Source: a bacterium
Lineage (GTDB): Bacteria > Zhuqueibacterota > Zhuqueibacteria > Zhuqueibacterales > Geothermadaptataceae
Direction: 5' to 3'
Length of the DNA stretch: 48,251 nucleotides
NCBI GenBank assembly: GCA_024275575.1
Contig: JAJRYV010000014.1
Span: 1-48,251, forward strand
Below, piece by piece: positions 25,731-48,084 of this stretch. Below the pieces are notes generated by a model. It searched no databases. It was not told the DNA's origin and saw nothing but the letters and a program-made list of their open reading frames with translations. The position numbers and the translations under genes are program-made. The stretch's first letter is position 1, and the number at the start of each line of letters is the position of its first letter.

Positions 25731-26012
25731 CTATCCAAACTCGAGTAATTGCTTTATAATTTCTACACGCTCATCGCTCGAAATCAGGTTGATGACTTTT
25801 GTAAAGACCTGCTCCAAATGACGCCTGTCGTTCGAAACGATGGCCACACCCAAAAAACCCATCTGGTAGTTTTCATGCTCTGTAATTTCAGCAATCGAAA
25901 CGTTGAATTTCTGCCTGATTCTCTCTTTCAGGCTGCAAACGACCGATCTTTTGTCTTTTAGAGAATGACAATCAAAAATTAAAAATTGTATTTGACAAAT
26001 AGCAACTTGCAT
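25731..26012 (-). CDS. ylxP: DUF503 protein (YlxP-like)
   Basis: This 93-residue protein of the DUF503 family is commonly found between infB and rbfA. It begins [25 protein letters not shown], continues with LKERIRQKFNVSIAEI, and carries GFLGVAIVSNDRRHLEQVF, a compact ferredoxin-like fold. The ATG at 26012 overlaps the TGA of infB by one base (TGATG), a translational-coupling arrangement; an upstream TTG is not needed. Function is unproven; its constant place in the operon suggests ribosome assembly. Confidence 0.92.
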   Translation of the reverse strand: MQVAICQIQFLIFDCHSLKDKRSVVCSLKERIRQKFNVSIAEITEHENYQMGFLGVAIVSNDRRHLEQVFTKVINLISSDERVEIIKQLLEFG

Positions 26013-28654
26013 CAAGCGAGTGTGCGTTTAACTTCGACGTAGTTAATGGCTTCAATAATATCATTTATGTGGATATCATCATATCCTTCAATACCAATAC
26101 CGCACTCGAATCCTGTCGCTACTTCTTTTACGTCATCTTTAAATCGTCTCAAAGACCCGATTTTGCCTTCGTAAACCAAACGATTATCGCGATAGAGGCG
26201 CACCGGATCGTTGCGATGTATTTTTCCCGAAGTGACGTAACAACCGGCGATAGTGCCGATTTTTGGAACTTTAAAGGTCTCACGTACTTCAATCGTGCCA
26301 CTGGTTTCTTCCCGAATCTCCGGCGCAAGCATACCTTCGAGGGCTGCTTTCACATCATTTACGGCGTCATAAATAACCTGATAAATGCGGATATCGATTT
26401 CTTCTTTCGTCGCCAGGTCTCTTGCCTGTAAGTCCACTCTTACATGAAATCCGATAATAATCGCGCTTGAAGCCACCGCAAGATTCACATCGGTTTCTGA
26501 TATACCACCGACTGCTTTGTGGATGATATTAACTGCGACTTCGTTTGTGGCGAGTTTCATCAGGCTGTCGGTGATCGCTTCAACTGACCCGTCGACATCT
26601 GCCTTGACGATAATATTAAGTTCGCGTACACGGCCTTCCTGTATCTGTTTGGATATCTGATCCAGAGTCAGATGTTTAACCTGTCTGATTTCCTGCTCGC
26701 GCCGCAGTTGTTGCCGTTTCATGCTGATTTCACGCGCTTCCTTTTCAGTTTTCATAACGACCAAACGATCGCCGGACTGCGGTGTTGCAGAAAAGCCGAT
26801 GACCCGAATAGGTGTTGAAGGTGGCGCTTCTTTAACTCGTTTTCCGCGCTCATCCAAAAGTGCGCGCACTCGCCCGTAGGTTAATCCTGCGACAAAAACA
26901 TCTCCTGTCCGTAGTGTCCCGGTCTGAATCAAAACGGTAGCGATAGGCCCCTTGCCTTTATCAAGCTCTGCTTCGACGACTAAACCGCGCGATAGCCGGT
27001 TCGGGTTTGCTTTCAGCTCGAGCATTTCAGATTCGAGCAAAATACCATCGAGAAGTTTATCGATACCCTCCCCTGTTTTAGCAGATATCTCAGTATCCTG
27101 ATAGCTCCCACCCCAACTTTCTACAAGCACATTATGCGTCGAAAGTTGTTGTTTGACATGATCAGGATTTGCATTCGCTTTATCAATTTTATTAATCGCA
27201 ATGATGATTGGCACACCTGCTGCTTTTGCATGATTTAAAGCTTCAAGTGTTTGCTCCTGCACGCCGTCATCTGCTGAAACGATGAGAATGACGATATCAG
27301 TCGCCTGCGCGCCACGAGCGCGCATCGCGGTAAATGCCTCATGTCCGGGGGTGTCGAGAAATGTTATATGCTTATTCTCTTTGACGGTCACTTCGTAAGC
27401 GCCGATATGCTGTGTTATGCCTCCGGCCTCACCTGCGATGACATTGCTCTCTCGAATAAAATCCAATAAAGAAGTTTTCCCGTGGTCGACATGCCCCATA
27501 ATCGTCACAACCGGAGGCCGGGGTTGCAAGTCTTTATCGTCATCGGGATCAGAATCTTCCTCTTCAACAAGCGAGGCGAATTCCTTTTCCTGTTCAACAT
27601 CAAAACCAAACTCATCCGCCAACATGATAATGGTATCCATATCGAGGCGCTGATTGATCGAAATCATCATGCCCAGTTCGAGGCATTTTTTGATAATCGA
27701 TGCTGCATCGATTTCCATTAATTTTGCCAGATCAGCAGCCGAAATGAATTCGGAGACTTTTATTGTTGCAGTTGCCGAATCATCGCTTTCATCTTCATCT
27801 GCCGTTTTTAACTTTTTATGTTTCCGTCGACCCTTGCTTTCATCCATCGCGGCCAGTGTTTGTTTGATGGAAGCTGAAATTTCTTCATCGCTGATTTGTC
27901 GTTTTTTCTTACGCCGCTTTTTCTTCGATTTTTTGCCCGCCCCATCGCCTGCTGTTTGTTGAGGAGTTTTAGCGGTTTTATCAGATTTTGCTGATTCCTC
28001 TTTATTTTTCTTCGCCGACGCAGCTGTTTTTTCTTTGCTTACGGGTTTGTTTTTATCTTTGGCTGCAACCGCTCCAGTGTCCTTTTTTACTTCGCTAATT
28101 TTCGTTGCCACCTTATCGGTTTTGCCGGCATGTTTCGCATCGCTGCTTGATTCCGGTCGGCTTGTGGCAGTTTCTCCCTCAGCTTCAACCACATCTCTCG
28201 TGGTAATATCCATATCCTTTGCCGGCTCAGCAGGTTTTTCGGTTTTCTTAAACCCATCTTCCTTTATCAACTCAAGGGCTTCTGCTTTTGCCGAGTCAAC
28301 CGCGATTTTAAGCACTTCTTCTTTTGACGGGACTTTCCGCTTAACTTTCTTAACGACGACTTCACGAGCAAATTTCAATCGTTGGTCCAGTTCTTCCTGC
28401 GCCCGTTCCTTCTTTTTCTGCTCGATAGCTTTTTTTTCTTTTAACTTTTTGCGAAAATCATATTCAGTATCGCCAGAGGTATCCCGCGTCGCTTTGCCCA
28501 GGTATTTCTTCGAAACCAGCTCGTACATTTCTTCCGTGACCAGGCTCATATGGTTTTTCACTGCAAAGTCCTGCTTTGTCAAAAAACCAAGTAAGGTTTC
28601 ATTGGATACGTTGCACTCTTTCGCGACTTGAAATATTCTTCGTTTTGCAGCCAA
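26012..28654 (-). CDS. infB: translation initiation factor IF-2
   Basis: IF-2 is the GTPase that brings initiator tRNA to the 30S subunit and promotes subunit joining. The 880-residue protein has an IF2N-type N terminus ([20 protein letters not shown]), a long charged Lys/Glu/Ala linker (about 70-290), a second IF2N-like segment, then the G domain ([12 protein letters not shown] near 387, [16 protein letters not shown]), domain II and a C-terminal fMet-tRNA-binding domain. The start is TTG at 28654 with GGGTGAG about 6 bases upstream. It sits 23 bases after nusA and overlaps the DUF503 gene by one base. Confidence 0.98.
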
Positions 28655-28677: not shown

Positions 28678-29811
28678 TTATTCTTCAATTTGTTCGAAAA
28701 TTTTCTCTACGGTTTTCTTGCCGATCCCGTCGATATTCATCAAACCGTCTCGCCCCTGCTCGATAATATCATGAACTGAAAAGATTTGTGCAGCATGCAA
28801 CTTTTCGATGATCGATGGTCGGATGCCTTCTAAATCATCAAGGCTGACTTCTTTTTCTTTTTCGGTCTGTATCATAGCCGTATATTCGGATTCTTTGAGA
28901 ATCTCGACATTATAGCTGGTCAAACGGCTTGTCAGTCTGCGGTTTAAACCACCTTTGCCGATCGATATGGAAACTTGTTCATCGGAGATAACGGCAACGG
29001 CAGATTTATTCTCTTCATCGATGATCACTTTTAGAGGTTTTGCCGGACTCAGCGCCCGTGAAATATAAGTCGAAGGATCATTGCTATATGGAATGATGTC
29101 AATTTTCTCGTTGTTCAATTCTTTGCTGATCGCCTGAATACGTATGCCTTTCATGCCCACGCAGGCACCTACCGGGTCGATACGTTTGTCATTGGAAAAC
29201 ACGGCTATCTTAGAGCGTTCTCCCGGTTGCCGGGCAACGTTTTTTATTTCGATAATACCGTCATATATTTCCGGCACTTCGAGTTCAAAAAGACGAATTA
29301 AAAATTTTGGATCGGCACGGGATACGATCACTTCCGGCCCACGGGCACTTTTCCGCACCTCTTTGACCAAAACCCGCACGCTTTCTCCGCGGTGGTATCG
29401 TTCGCTATCGATTTGTTCACTCCGAGGTAAAAGAGCCTCCGTCCGGTCGATCAGCAAAAAGATATCACTGCGATTGATTTGCCGAACATCACCTAAAATA
29501 ATTTCACCAATACGATTATTAAATTCGCTGTAAATTATCTCTTTTTCAACGTCTTTAATGCGCTGGTTTAAATTCTGTTTTGCGCTTGTAATGAGCCGCC
29601 GGCCAAACATGGTTGGATTCAATATTTCGATAAAATCGTCACCCACTTCAAGGGATGATTCGACTTTTCTGGCCGATTCGAGATCAATTTCATGAACAGG
29701 GTCGACAACCTCTTCAACGATAACCTTGTTTTGATAGATCTCAATTTCACCCTTATCCAAATTGACAAAAATCTCAAAATTATCAGCTGAGCCGTATTTT
29801 TTCGTTATCAT
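28678..29811 (-). CDS. nusA: transcription termination/antitermination factor NusA (main open part)
   Basis: NusA binds RNA polymerase and nascent RNA. The open part encodes 377 residues: most of the N-terminal domain, S1 (RGESVRVLVKEVRKSARGPEV), KH1 and KH2 (VGACVGMKGIRIQAISKEL; DEQVSISIGKGGLNRRL) and one C-terminal helix-hairpin-helix unit (LMNIDGIGKKTVEKIFEQ). About 33 expected residues are missing at the start: they are encoded in frame from the ATG at 29910, but a TAG at 29836-29838 interrupts them. A full copy would be 28678-29910, 410 residues plus the stop. If not an error, synthesis depends on readthrough or restart at the ATG at 29811. It is between rimP and infB, the standard place. 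Confidence 0.93.
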   Translation of the reverse strand: MITKKYGSADNFEIFVNLDKGEIEIYQNKVIVEEVVDPVHEIDLESARKVESSLEVGDDFIEILNPTMFGRRLITSAKQNLNQRIKDVEKEIIYSEFNNRIGEIILGDVRQINRSDIFLLIDRTEALLPRSEQIDSERYHRGESVRVLVKEVRKSARGPEVIVSRADPKFLIRLFELEVPEIYDGIIEIKNVARQPGERSKIAVFSNDKRIDPVGACVGMKGIRIQAISKELNNEKIDIIPYSNDPSTYISRALSPAKPLKVIIDEENKSAVAVISDEQVSISIGKGGLNRRLTSRLTSYNVEILKESEYTAMIQTEKEKEVSLDDLEGIRPSIIEKLHAAQIFSVHDIIEQGRDGLMNIDGIGKKTVEKIFEQIEE

Positions 29812-29835
29812 CGAGATGACGATGCCTTCGATGAT

Positions 29836-29910
29836 CTAGCTCAATTGATCCTTCTCGATATTTTTTTCTTTGACAATCTGGCTAAAAGCGTTGGCTATTT
29901 CAGTATTCAT
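29836..29910 (-). pseudogene. nusA: 5' end of nusA, closed by an in-frame TAG
   Basis: From the ATG at 29910 (with GGAGG at 29927-29923, a long 12-base spacer) the frame reads MNTEIANAFSQIVKEKNIEK then DQLS and TAG, and continues IIEGIVISM into the main nusA frame with no shift. This is a typical NusA N terminus. Aligned by eye with E. coli NusA, the TAG replaces a glutamate, so one G-to-T change (GAG to TAG) explains it. Confidence 0.85.
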
Positions 29911-29966
29911 TTTGAACTTTTTCCTCCAAACGAAGGTCGACTACTCATTTTTTGTGAATCTGTTAA

Positions 29967-30422
29967 TTATTTCCATTTTATTTGAATTAAAGCGCTGTCA
30001 ATTTGATCATACGGAATTTCAAACAATGAATGATCATATTCGATAACGACCTGTTCACTTTCTGCATGACTGATTTCGCCAGAGATTTCCCTGTCTTCCT
30101 CATCATATCGATAGGCAATTTTCACCAGACGTCCAACGTTACGCGCAAAATCACGGGCAGTTTTTAAAGGCCTGTCCAGCCCCGGCGAGGAAACATCGAT
30201 ACGGTATGGCGTTTTGATGATGTCTTCCGCTTCGATGAGATGATTGAGCTCACGGCTGATAGCGGCACATTTTTCAATCGCAATCCCTCCGGCTTCATCC
30301 ACAAACACACGGATCACCGGATTTCTCGAACTACCTTTAATTTCCAGGTCGACAAACTCCGTGTTTTTATTCTCAATAGACTGCTTGAATTTTGCAGCTA
30401 ACTCTTCTTTTAATCTTTCCAT
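29967..30422 (-). CDS. rimP: ribosome maturation factor RimP
   Basis: RimP acts in 30S subunit maturation. The 151-residue protein shows the family pattern: an N-terminal helix (ERLKEELAAKFKQSIENK), VDLEIKGSSRNPVIRVFVDE, GGIAIEKCAAISRELNHLIE, YRIDVSSPGLDRPLKTARDF and a C-terminal Sm-like barrel ending QIDSALIQIKWK. It is the first gene of the rimP-nusA-infB operon and ends 56 bases before the nusA start. A terminator-like stem-loop stands 15 bases upstream of its ATG, with a good promoter just ahead of that, so leader control is possible. Confidence 0.96.
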   Translation of the reverse strand: MERLKEELAAKFKQSIENKNTEFVDLEIKGSSRNPVIRVFVDEAGGIAIEKCAAISRELNHLIEAEDIIKTPYRIDVSSPGLDRPLKTARDFARNVGRLVKIAYRYDEEDREISGEISHAESEQVVIEYDHSLFEIPYDQIDSALIQIKWK

Positions 30423-42478: not shown

Positions 42479-42620
42479 CTGTTTAGCCAGCCGCCAAACC
42501 CGTATTATCAAGGCTGAAAGTATATAAATTAATCCGCCTTAAATAAAATCGTAGGGTCTTGGGCATACAATTCATTGCTGATCGCTCAAACCCGGAAATG
42601 ATTTTTTCGCAGGAGATTTT

Positions 42621-43997
42621 ATGCGTACACATAGTGTCAAAAATTTCGTGCTTCCCCCTGTTTTGGCTGTTGCTTTTCTCATTTTAGGCATACTTATCAT
42701 GCCGAAAATCAATTTACAGTATACCGGCATTAGCCAGATCAGCCGGGCAGATGCACGCTCCATCGTCGATACTTTTATCGAAAAACGTAGGATCGATGTC
42801 TCGGATTTTTATCTTGATCAGTTTTTTATTCATGATAACACCGGCATCGATTTTCTCACCCGCACTTACGGTGCTGGAAAAACTATAGCTCTCGCCCAAA
42901 GCGAAGAGCTGCCCCTCGCCTACTGGCAATTCCGTTTCTATAAAAACGTGCCGCGTGACAATCAAATCGAACTTTATGACTTGCGCGTTTCTCCAACCGG
43001 CAAACTGATAAAATATCTGCATCATCTGCCGGATTCTGCTGCCGGCGCCAACTTGACCCATGAACAGGCGCGCAGGCTTGCCGAAGGATTAGCCGTGAAC
43101 TGGCCGGCGATTAACTTTGCCGACTTTGAACTGGAAAATGCCTCCAGCGTTGAAAAAACCAACCGTACCGACCACACCTTCAAATACCATCATAAAACAC
43201 AGAAATATAACGGCGGCACCTATTCTTTCGCTGTACAGATTTGCGGTGATGAAATTGCACAGGTCACCTCATTTTTTCAGGAGCCCGGCAATTTCACCAG
43301 TGCTTCCGGCCTTGTTGGCGGAGCGAATTTGCTTTTTAATTCAATCTCTGTCCTGGCTTACGTTTTTCTGCTTTTTCTTTCGATTATTGTTTTTCTGCAA
43401 AAATACCACGCCGGACTCGTCGGTGTGCGAAACGGTCTGCGCATCGGGGCGATTATTTACATCGCTTTCATCGTGCAGGCCATTTTCTCCTGGGATATTT
43501 TCGGACTGGGCACACAGTTTGGCGCCATCGGCCTGTTCCATAAAAAATTCGTCATTCTCGGTTTAACTCTGGCCACCTCGACACTTTTCATTTTCCTGCA
43601 TGTCGCCACTTCCTGGACTGCCGCGGATCACATCATCCGAACAGAAAAATTACCGCTGTTGCACGGTATGGACAGTATCATTAACAATCGCTGGATCACC
43701 AAAAACCTCGGCCGTGAAATTCCCATTGGCATCGCTGCGGGTATAACAGTTTTCGGCCTGATTCAGGTCGTTTCCTGGGTTCTGATCCAGCTCACCAACG
43801 CGGCGCCCCGCCTCAGTGCCCAGGGCGGCAGTTTTTTTTCTTACAAAATTTGTTTATCGGAGCGATGGCCTCAATCGCTTTTAATGTGGTTTTCACAGAA
43901 GTCGTCGCCCGAAAATTCCTCATTACTTATCTATTTCAAAAATACCGCAATGCTGTCCTGGCAATTGTTGTTGCAGCGGCCATCACTGCGGTTATGA
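42621..43997 (+). CDS. CPBP-SpoIIE phosphatase, 5' part (frameshifted)
   Basis: This is the first part of a gene split by a shift. It encodes an N-terminal anchor, a periplasmic domain of about 200 residues and several membrane helices (near 230-250, 270-290, 300-325 and 360-390). The last real codons are near GGSFF at 43822-43838; the 53 residues after the T8 run (from SYKICLSERW) are out-of-frame and should be ignored. Restoring the frame joins this part to the CPBP/SpoIIE frame beginning around 43840. ATG at 42621 with GGAG upstream. The combined gene would be about 814 residues. Confidence 0.8.
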   Translation: MRTHSVKNFVLPPVLAVAFLILGILIMPKINLQYTGISQISRADARSIVDTFIEKRRIDVSDFYLDQFFIHDNTGIDFLTRTYGAGKTIALAQSEELPLAYWQFRFYKNVPRDNQIELYDLRVSPTGKLIKYLHHLPDSAAGANLTHEQARRLAEGLAVNWPAINFADFELENASSVEKTNRTDHTFKYHHKTQKYNGGTYSFAVQICGDEIAQVTSFFQEPGNFTSASGLVGGANLLFNSISVLAYVFLLFLSIIVFLQKYHAGLVGVRNGLRIGAIIYIAFIVQAIFSWDIFGLGTQFGAIGLFHKKFVILGLTLATSTLFIFLHVATSWTAADHIIRTEKLPLLHGMDSIINNRWITKNLGREIPIGIAAGITVFGLIQVVSWVLIQLTNAAPRLSAQGGSFFSYKICLSERWPQSLLMWFSQKSSPENSSLLIYFKNTAMLSWQLLLQRPSLRL

Positions 43998-45064
43998 ACA
44001 TATTTTTCAGCAACAGTCATATTTTCTGGCCAAGTTACTGGTCGCTTCTACCCTATTTCTTCATCGCTTTGCTGCAGGGCTTCATTTTTTGGCGCTATGG
44101 CCTGATCGCTGCAGTCTGCTCAAATATCGTTATGCAAATCATGCCGGTGATGATTCCGTTATTCTCCAGTGCAGCATTTGAGTATCAGATGACAGCTTAC
44201 CTGTTTGGCGTTTTTATTTTAGGGATGCTTGTTCTCGGTTTTACAGGTTTGAAAAAGGGCAAATTCATCATTTTTGCCCGCAATGAAGAGCCGGCGCATA
44301 TTCGCCGTATCAAAGAGCAGACACGCATGCAAAAAGAGCTGGAGATCGCCAAAAAAGTCCAGCTCGGCTTGCTGCCGAAGGAAAAACCACAACGCAAAGG
44401 ATTCGATATCGCCGGAGTCAGTTATCCGGCGCTGGAAGTTGGCGGTGATTATTTTGATTTTATCGGTCTTGACAATGGCAATCTCGGTATTGCGATCGGC
44501 GATGTTTCTGGGAAAGGTGTGCCTGCAGCGATTTACATGACGCTGACGAAAGGCATTCTGCAATCACACGCTGAACACGACCTGTCGCCAAAACATGTTT
44601 TGAGCAAAGTCAACAGTCTGATGTACCGGACAATCGAAAAATCCTGGTATGTAAGCATGTTTTATGCCGTGCTTGAAGTTGAAACAAAAAAGCTGCGTTT
44701 TTCCCGGGCAGGCCATAACCCGGCCATCGTTTTTCATACTGACGGCAGCGAACCGCAAATGCTGCAACCAGCAGGCATCGGGCTTGGGTTGGAATACGGC
44801 GATATCTTCACACAAACTCTTGTCGAAAGCGAAATTCAGCTTACTCCCGGAACTACCCTCGTTTTTTATACCGACGGTTTTACAGAAGCTATGAATGCTG
44901 ATGGCGAAGAATTCGGTGAAGACCGGTTTCTTGAAATCCTGTCGACTTATAAAAATGGTTCAGCCGAAGGCTTATTGCAACATGCATTAACCGAAATCAA
45001 TAAATTCGTCGATGGGTTCCCCCAACATGATGATATGACGATGGTCGTTTTGAAGGTCCAGTAA
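43850..45064 (+). CDS. CPBP-SpoIIE phosphatase, 3' part (frameshifted)
   Basis: The frame continues as the C-terminal part of the same protein. Its first 140 residues are membrane helices with a worn CPBP (CAAX-protease-like) pattern: FTEVVARKFLITYLF in place of EExxxR, and no motif His in FFIALLQGFIFWRYG. A linker then leads to a SpoIIE-type PP2C domain: ELEIAKKVQLGLLP, VGGDYFDF (metal Asp), AIGDVSGKGVPAA, FSRAGHNPAIV and HDDMTMVVLKV. SpoIIE phosphatases dephosphorylate proteins such as anti-sigma antagonists. The start given is the first start-like codon (TTG 43850); synthesis probably depends on a frame restored upstream. Confidence 0.85.
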   Translation: MFIGAMASIAFNVVFTEVVARKFLITYLFQKYRNAVLAIVVAAAITAVMNIFFSNSHIFWPSYWSLLPYFFIALLQGFIFWRYGLIAAVCSNIVMQIMPVMIPLFSSAAFEYQMTAYLFGVFILGMLVLGFTGLKKGKFIIFARNEEPAHIRRIKEQTRMQKELEIAKKVQLGLLPKEKPQRKGFDIAGVSYPALEVGGDYFDFIGLDNGNLGIAIGDVSGKGVPAAIYMTLTKGILQSHAEHDLSPKHVLSKVNSLMYRTIEKSWYVSMFYAVLEVETKKLRFSRAGHNPAIVFHTDGSEPQMLQPAGIGLGLEYGDIFTQTLVESEIQLTPGTTLVFYTDGFTEAMNADGEEFGEDRFLEILSTYKNGSAEGLLQHALTEINKFVDGFPQHDDMTMVVLKVQ

Positions 45065-46677: not shown

Positions 46678-48084
46678 TCATGAGTTCAAGGTTTCAGCAA
46701 TCTGAAGCAAATTCCTGGTAATTTCCTGTACGCCTGTATTGGCATCGACCCGGTGCAAAAGGCCGCTCCGGTGGTAGAACTCGATCAATGGCTCGGTTTG
46801 CTGATAAAAAGTATGCAGCCGTTTGCGCACCGTTTCCGGTGTGTCGTCTAACCGTTGATAGAGGTATTCACCGTTACACTCATTCTGCGGGCAGGTTTGG
46901 AAGGGATTGAAAAGATTGTGGAAAGGCGTTTGGCATTTTTTGCAACTGATGCGTCCCGCAATACGCGGGACCACCGCCTCATCATCGACTTCAAAATAAA
47001 GCACGCCGGAAATTTTTTTTCCCATTTCGGCCATCATCTCGGTGAGTGCCGTGGCCTGTACCAAGGTTCGCGGGAAACCATCGAGCACGATACCGTTCAG
47101 CGTATCATTCTTTTGCAGCCTGCTTTTCACCATCTGTTCCGTAATGTTGTTGGGCACGAGCTCTCCACGATCGATATAAAATTTCGCCAGTTTGCCCAAA
47201 TCGGTTTTCTGCCGGATATGCAGCCGAAACAAATCTCCGGTTGAGACTTGCACAATGTTCAGCGCTTCACAGAGCATTTTGGCCTGCGTACCCTTTCCAG
47301 AACCGGGCGCGCCGAGAAAAACAAGATTTAATCCGGTTTGTATTGTCGGGATTGCTTTATTCGCGACACTGCGCCCGCCTGTCTGGGCAGTGAGCAGTTT
47401 TTTCGCATCAGCAGAATCCGCAGTGACGAAGTGTGCAGCCATAATGTTGGCGATTTTATTTTCCATCGCTTGTGTCACAACATCGACAGGACGTTCGGCA
47501 TCGATGATGACGAGTTTGCCATGGGATTGAAAATACTCGATGAGCGGTGCGGTCTCACGATGGTAGATACTGAGGCGTGCCGCCGGGATATCACCGACAT
47601 CATCATCGCGACGAAAAAGCTCTCCCCCGCAGCCGGGTTGTGAGCAGATATTAAAATCGGTGAAATCGACGTGGTGAGGAAGCTGACACCGGCGGCAAAT
47701 GAGGCGGCCGGCCAACCGGCGCTGGATTTCATCATCTCTCACTTTCAGATAAATGACGGCGTCGAGCTGTCTGCCGGATTTGGTAAAATCTTTTTCCAAA
47801 AAATTTGCCTGATAACCGGTTCGTGGAAAACCGTCGAACAAAATACCCTGATCAGGATTCATTTTCAGCAGACATTCCTCGATTATTGCGTCGATAACTT
47901 CATCGGGCACAAACTCACCGGCGCGCATATATTTTTTTGCCAGCAAGCCAAGTGCACTACCGTTTTCCCGACTCTGACGCAGAAAATCACCTGTGGAAAC
48001 GTGCTGTAAGTTAAACTTTGGCGCCAAAACATGAGCATATGTCCCTTTGCCCGCGCCGGACGGACCGATCAATGCAATATTCAT
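46678..48084 (-). CDS. adk: tandem-fused adenylate kinase (two complete domains)
   Basis: Adenylate kinase converts AMP and ATP to two ADP. This 468-residue protein is two head-to-tail copies. Copy 1 (about 1-215) has the P-loop GPSGAGKGTY, STGDFLR, LFDGFPRTGYQ, RLAGRLICRR and a four-cysteine LID (CRRC ... CSQPGC). A Thr/Ala-rich linker (about 215-250) follows. Copy 2 (about 250-468) has GAPGSGKGTQ, STGDLFRLH, VLDGFPRTLVQ, RIAGRISCKK and its own zinc LID (CKKC ... CPQNEC). Both carry the arginines after the LID (DDTPETVRKRL in copy 2), so both look active. AGGGA precedes the ATG. It is about 80 bases from the window-end repeats. Confidence 0.93.
   Translation of the reverse strand: MNIALIGPSGAGKGTYAHVLAPKFNLQHVSTGDFLRQSRENGSALGLLAKKYMRAGEFVPDEVIDAIIEECLLKMNPDQGILFDGFPRTGYQANFLEKDFTKSGRQLDAVIYLKVRDDEIQRRLAGRLICRRCQLPHHVDFTDFNICSQPGCGGELFRRDDDVGDIPAARLSIYHRETAPLIEYFQSHGKLVIIDAERPVDVVTQAMENKIANIMAAHFVTADSADAKKLLTAQTGGRSVANKAIPTIQTGLNLVFLGAPGSGKGTQAKMLCEALNIVQVSTGDLFRLHIRQKTDLGKLAKFYIDRGELVPNNITEQMVKSRLQKNDTLNGIVLDGFPRTLVQATALTEMMAEMGKKISGVLYFEVDDEAVVPRIAGRISCKKCQTPFHNLFNPFQTCPQNECNGEYLYQRLDDTPETVRKRLHTFYQQTEPLIEFYHRSGLLHRVDANTGVQEITRNLLQIAETLNS

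Follow-up and report, generated by a model that had tools for sequence, protein, structure and literature searches.

The in-frame TAG at codon 25 of nusA in the window, by which we mean the whole analysed stretch of 48,251 nucleotides, is probably a sequence error at the level of the consensus, in a draft assembly that is not free of errors (we put the probability at roughly two in three), and the organism would be expected to make a normal full-length NusA. The observations behind this reading are that many conserved genes of the assembly, at least 14 besides nusA, are broken at once, that nusA is a single-copy gene otherwise under normal constraint, and that no machinery for reading UAA or UAG as sense was found in the assembly. 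The initial annotation had offered a DNA error or population variant on the one hand and readthrough or restart at a downstream ATG on the other; a DNA error or variant, rather than codon reassignment, is best supported by our results, while the restart is not supported. Throughout, G000 denotes the genome studied, G001 a same-genus relative genome, and L-numbers the sampled stretches. Going by its best named relatives, the organism falls near the KSB1/Calditrichota-type lineages. The relevant features of the window are as follows.

28678..29910, minus strand: nusA, 410 codons counting the TAG, followed by TAA; matches TIGR01953 and PDB NusA structures
29836..29838, minus strand: in-frame TAG at nusA codon 25, where both same-genus relatives and most of the class have Glu
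29809..29811, minus strand: internal ATG at nusA codon 34, the proposed restart, with a weak Shine-Dalgarno sequence
29911..29932, minus strand: nusA ribosome-binding region, GGAGGA at a spacing of 11, from Shine-Dalgarno scoring
29967..30422, minus strand: rimP, upstream of nusA, giving the operon context; an ORF syntenic with G001
26012..28654, minus strand: infB, downstream of nusA, with a TTG start and a fair Shine-Dalgarno sequence; an ORF in synteny with G001

As the initial annotation had described, nusA starts with the ATG at 29910, runs through 24 codons (MNTEIANAFSQIVKEKNIEKDQLS) to the TAG at 29838-29836, and then continues in the same frame. This frame stays open to a TAA ending at 28678. 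Since this frame runs on unbroken through 385 conserved codons past the TAG, the arrangement is beyond chance. The read-through protein scores 381.7 bits against TIGR01953, a whole-protein family profile (NusA_N, S1 and KH regions) with a cut-off of 253.4, and its NusA_N domain scores 102.9 bits in a match that contains '1 TAG'; PDB NusA chains, that of E. coli included, align to it from residue 1. The gene product is thus a NusA transcription factor by its family profile, with a reading frame that is interrupted at codon 25. The earlier by-eye alignment with E. coli NusA, which had placed a glutamate at the TAG, agrees with the residue at the aligned position of that protein, which we take to be Glu25. 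A comparison with related genomes and a search for a second nusA had also been proposed. Codon 25 is GAA in one same-genus relative (L003, 89% amino acid identity) and GAG in another (L004, 87% amino acid identity), and most of the class has Glu there; therefore, the stop is private to this genome. Searching the whole assembly (4.96 Mb in 144 contigs, 97.7% complete) for NusA_N returned one match, this locus, and hence no second nusA.

Reinitiation after nonsense codons in bacterial genes is known from laboratory mutants, and nusA resembles such cases in having an ATG 27 bases past the stop, at a codon that is Met in near relatives and Ala in most of the distant ones, with a weak GAAGG upstream. 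A readthrough or restart specific to nusA at this ATG (29811), as the initial annotation had suggested, would yield a shortened or low-abundance NusA. However, nusA differs from the laboratory cases in its weak internal ribosome site, with a Shine-Dalgarno energy of -3.8 kcal/mol (spacing 12) versus -9.3 kcal/mol at the true start, and in the constraint that still acts on its first 24 codons. Relative to G001, codons 1-24 carry 8 synonymous and 2 nonsynonymous codon changes, and codons 34-200 carry 77 and 16, respectively; since the synonymous excess matches that of the rest of the gene, codons 1-24 are still constrained as protein. Neither a usable downstream ribosome site nor relaxed constraint on the bypassed codons was therefore found. 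In a predicted model of the NusA N-terminal domain (mean pLDDT 84.5), residues 2-15 and 20-39 form helices, and codon 25 falls within the second of these; a restart at residue 34 would be predicted to delete the first helix together with 14 of the 20 residues of the second. Moreover, a restart leaves the mid-gene stops in 14 other genes without explanation. Because codons 1-24 are conserved and the ribosome site at the internal ATG is weak, a lasting, established restart is unlikely, and we regard nusA-specific readthrough or restart as a very improbable account of the TAG.

The nusA stop had initially been treated as an isolated event, a view that does not survive comparison with G001. G000 was sampled in 61 stretches (1.21 Mb, window included) and set against 66 largely syntenic stretches of G001 (1.22 Mb), which gave 536 sense genes with about 205,000 codons; raw stops located upstream of start codons, in antisense ORFs or at C-terminal ends were discarded. 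This left 15 internal stops in conserved frames, that is, nusA and 14 more in the same assembly, affecting about 2.8% of the sampled conserved genes (15/536) and scattered over 10 contigs. Thirteen are UAA, two are UAG, and there is no UGA among them.

29836..29838 of the window: nusA, codon 25
L151:2732: aminotransferase-like gene
L151:8530: trigger-factor-like gene, at the gene's end
L152:7522: penicillin-binding-protein-like gene
L154:1879: ruvA, codon 6
L163:11781: sigma-factor-like gene
L195:2467: conserved gene
L197:18012: pyrG (PDB match for the gene)
L199:948: SurA-like gene
L200:466: alaS-like gene
L200:7549: regulator-like gene
L240:15228: conserved gene
L242:9699: sugar transferase-like gene
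L244:6456: argG (PDB match for the gene)
L250:19293: conserved gene

Beyond nusA, the identities of argG and pyrG are backed by PDB matches and the other names are our reading of the sequence; this applies to the alaS-like piece, for which a PDB search returned no match. Five further relatives (G002-G006) have sense codons at those stop sites that were readable, and the matches in these genomes that show a stop in the nusA piece reflect leader sequence inside the query. The reverse comparison by the same method revealed no convincing internal stop in G001, the entries being leaders, antisense frames or ends.

Four frameshifts in conserved genes were found as well in the sampled stretches, one of them in the window.

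43832..43853 of the window, plus strand: frameshift joining two halves of one 829-aa G001 gene
L197:5818-5841: frameshift beside a 22-base fold-back inverted repeat
L250:12490-12508: frameshift in a conserved gene
L255:12321-12345: frameshift in a conserved gene

Alongside the stops, these four frameshifts show that the assembly carries at least two kinds of error or damage. The gene split in the window (42606-45061, plus strand) corresponds to a G001 protein with a membrane part and a SpoIIE-type phosphatase. At L197:5770-5890, the 22-base fold-back inverted repeat (GGGATGGCTTTTTAGAATTAT and its complement) adjoins the frameshifted gene and looks like an assembly or amplification artefact.

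If the TAG is a consensus-level error, nusA would be intact in the living cell, the TAG would arise at the level of the consensus, and the same type of event would have struck the other stop-bearing genes in the sample, with occasional frameshifts besides; the reads would, we infer, show glutamate at the stop sites. The pattern resembles consensus errors in metagenome-assembled genomes in that isolated stops and frameshifts occur in otherwise intact, conserved, single-copy genes and are absent from relatives, but differs from them in that the stops cluster at glutamate positions, with no missense excess to match. Alternatively, the nonsense variants could be real: broken alleles could be present or fixed in the sequenced population, as might happen in a mutator lineage. 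The bases are indeed present in the assembly, and many genes are affected. However, the genes hit include essential single-copy genes that are otherwise under normal constraint, and simultaneous real truncation is implausible, because alaS-, pyrG-, ruvA- and argG-like genes as well as nusA would all be hit in one viable cell. In addition, both MutY and MutM are present with open frames, on which ground we rejected a G-to-T mutator arising from loss of either; such a mutator should also have left a missense excess, which was not seen. Real variants are accordingly very improbable as the source of these stops.

The residues found in G001 at the 15 stop sites are Glu at 10, Asp at 2, and Ala, Ser and Gln at one each. 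If single-base nonsense errors were uniform, the codon usage here would put 18% of them at Glu, and the chance of seeing Glu at 10 of 15 sites is then about 5e-5. GAA to TAA and GAG to TAG are both G-to-T changes, glutamate is the main residue that a G-to-T change turns into a stop, and the Ser site could be a C-to-A change. General G-to-T errors or damage of the 8-oxoguanine type in the library, kept in a low-coverage consensus, would thus place stops at Glu codons, and we at first favoured a generic G-to-T/C-to-A error. We dropped it on the strength of a missense control, in which single-base codon differences in conserved context were counted in the forward and the reverse direction. Asp-to-Tyr changes number 3 forward and 5 reverse, Gly-to-Val changes 1 and 5, and Gly-to-Cys changes 6 and 5; a general G-to-T error would have added about 9 to the first class and about 7 to 11 to the second, at a rate estimated from a Glu-to-stop count of 10 that may include two set-aside positions (L201:9182 and L239:14469), the true rate then being slightly lower. 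Likewise, about 3 stops in total would have been expected at Tyr, Cys and Gly GGA codons, and the sample has none. Including multi-base codon changes raises the background and makes the outcome of the missense test depend on the baseline assumed, so that this version is less decisive. While the Glu-codon changes are G-to-T, as in 8-oxoguanine sequencing artefacts, the assembly shows no elevation of the remaining G-to-T classes. Since the matching missense excess is missing, a general G-to-T cause is disfavoured, and we consider it unlikely. An error confined to GAA/GAG, that is, to a G before A-purine, would fit the glutamate bias, but would be unusual, and we identified no known cause for it; for such a context error acting in any frame, very few visible changes are expected outside the Glu phase. 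Consensus-level error does not account for a preference for Glu (10 of the 15 sites) that comes with no broader G-to-T missense excess, and this preference is the sole observation that keeps alive the reading of these stops as glutamate codons.

According to that reading, UAA and UAG still end genes but are also translated in part as glutamate, whether by a suppressor tRNA or because reassignment is at an early, ambiguous stage, and nonsense changes survive only at positions that tolerate Glu. Besides Glu at 10 and Asp at 2 of the 15 sites in G001, it would accommodate the absence of UGA among the stops, the presence of essential genes among those affected, and the lack of a matching G-to-T missense excess. 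There is a eukaryotic precedent in the nuclear code of Blastocrithidia, where UAR is read as Glu by cognate tRNA-Glu(UUA) and tRNA-Glu(CUA), UAR codons are used often, and UAA is the sole terminator (PMC12153298). The two cases are alike in having in-frame UAA/UAG at Glu positions with UAA still terminating, but differ in that here no such tRNA was found in the assembly, all three stops terminate, and only about 0.1% of Glu sites are affected by an internal stop. Furthermore, the only new bacterial codes that a screen of 250,000 prokaryote genomes reported concern arginine codons (PMC8629427).

Several features of this genome also speak against decoding as glutamate. Rfam models found 41 tRNAs genome-wide, all 41 of which could be typed, and the anticodons UUA and CUA are absent from this set. 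When tRNA-Glu with its anticodon changed to UUA served as the query, only the two normal tRNA-Glu genes matched; both are identical in sequence to their G001 counterparts and have a normal anticodon stem of 5 bp. We therefore rejected an amber or ochre suppressor tRNA among the assembled tRNA genes. The two tRNA-Glu(UUC) genes are nearly identical and lie in one cluster (L158:10569-10943), an arrangement shared with G001. Some tRNA genes may have escaped assembly, because the list has neither tRNA-Ile(GAU) nor tRNA-Ala(UGC); genes for these two are often located in rRNA operons, which the assembly seems to be without. Two class-I release factors, typed to class only, are present with open frames. 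The terminators of 602 long ORFs are TAA in 52%, TAG in 14% and TGA in 34% of cases, so that UAA and UAG together end 66% of these ORFs and have been neither lost nor restricted as terminators. The initial argument that TAG serves as a normal stop thus holds genome-wide, although it leaves the glutamate bias unexplained. In the relatives that were readable, the L195 site is Ser and the L199 site is Asp; the pyrG stop lies at a variable position; and G001 shows none of these internal stops. To our knowledge, no bacterium reads UAR as glutamate. Partial decoding of UAA/UAG as glutamate is thus very unlikely on present evidence, and we give still slightly less credence to the specific proposal that this KSB1-like bacterium is in an early stage of acquiring a second, glutamate meaning for UAA/UAG with most genes still ended by them; under this dual meaning, the genome would hold a hundred or more such codons, nusA codon 25 among them, as extrapolated from our sample.

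Stop usage itself has moved toward TGA in G000 relative to G001 (162 versus 110 paired genes), with UAG-to-UGA differences outnumbering the reverse by 23 to 5. We gave this shift no weight, since G000 also has the higher GC content (47% versus 43%).

If the stops are sequence errors, about 3% of conserved genes look broken in this draft genome when they are not, and claims of gene loss, truncation or recoding based on it need read support, an ordinary but useful conclusion. If, instead, the sites were real and translated as glutamate, this would be the first bacterium found to read UAA/UAG as Glu and would offer a living intermediate of codon reassignment, which is an open question in the evolution of the genetic code.

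Elsewhere in the window, positions 46678-48084 (minus strand) encode a 468-aa protein with two adenylate kinase domains in tandem. Its G001 counterpart aligns over nearly the whole length with 60.7% identity; accordingly, judging from the sequence, this is a genuine tandem or fused adk.
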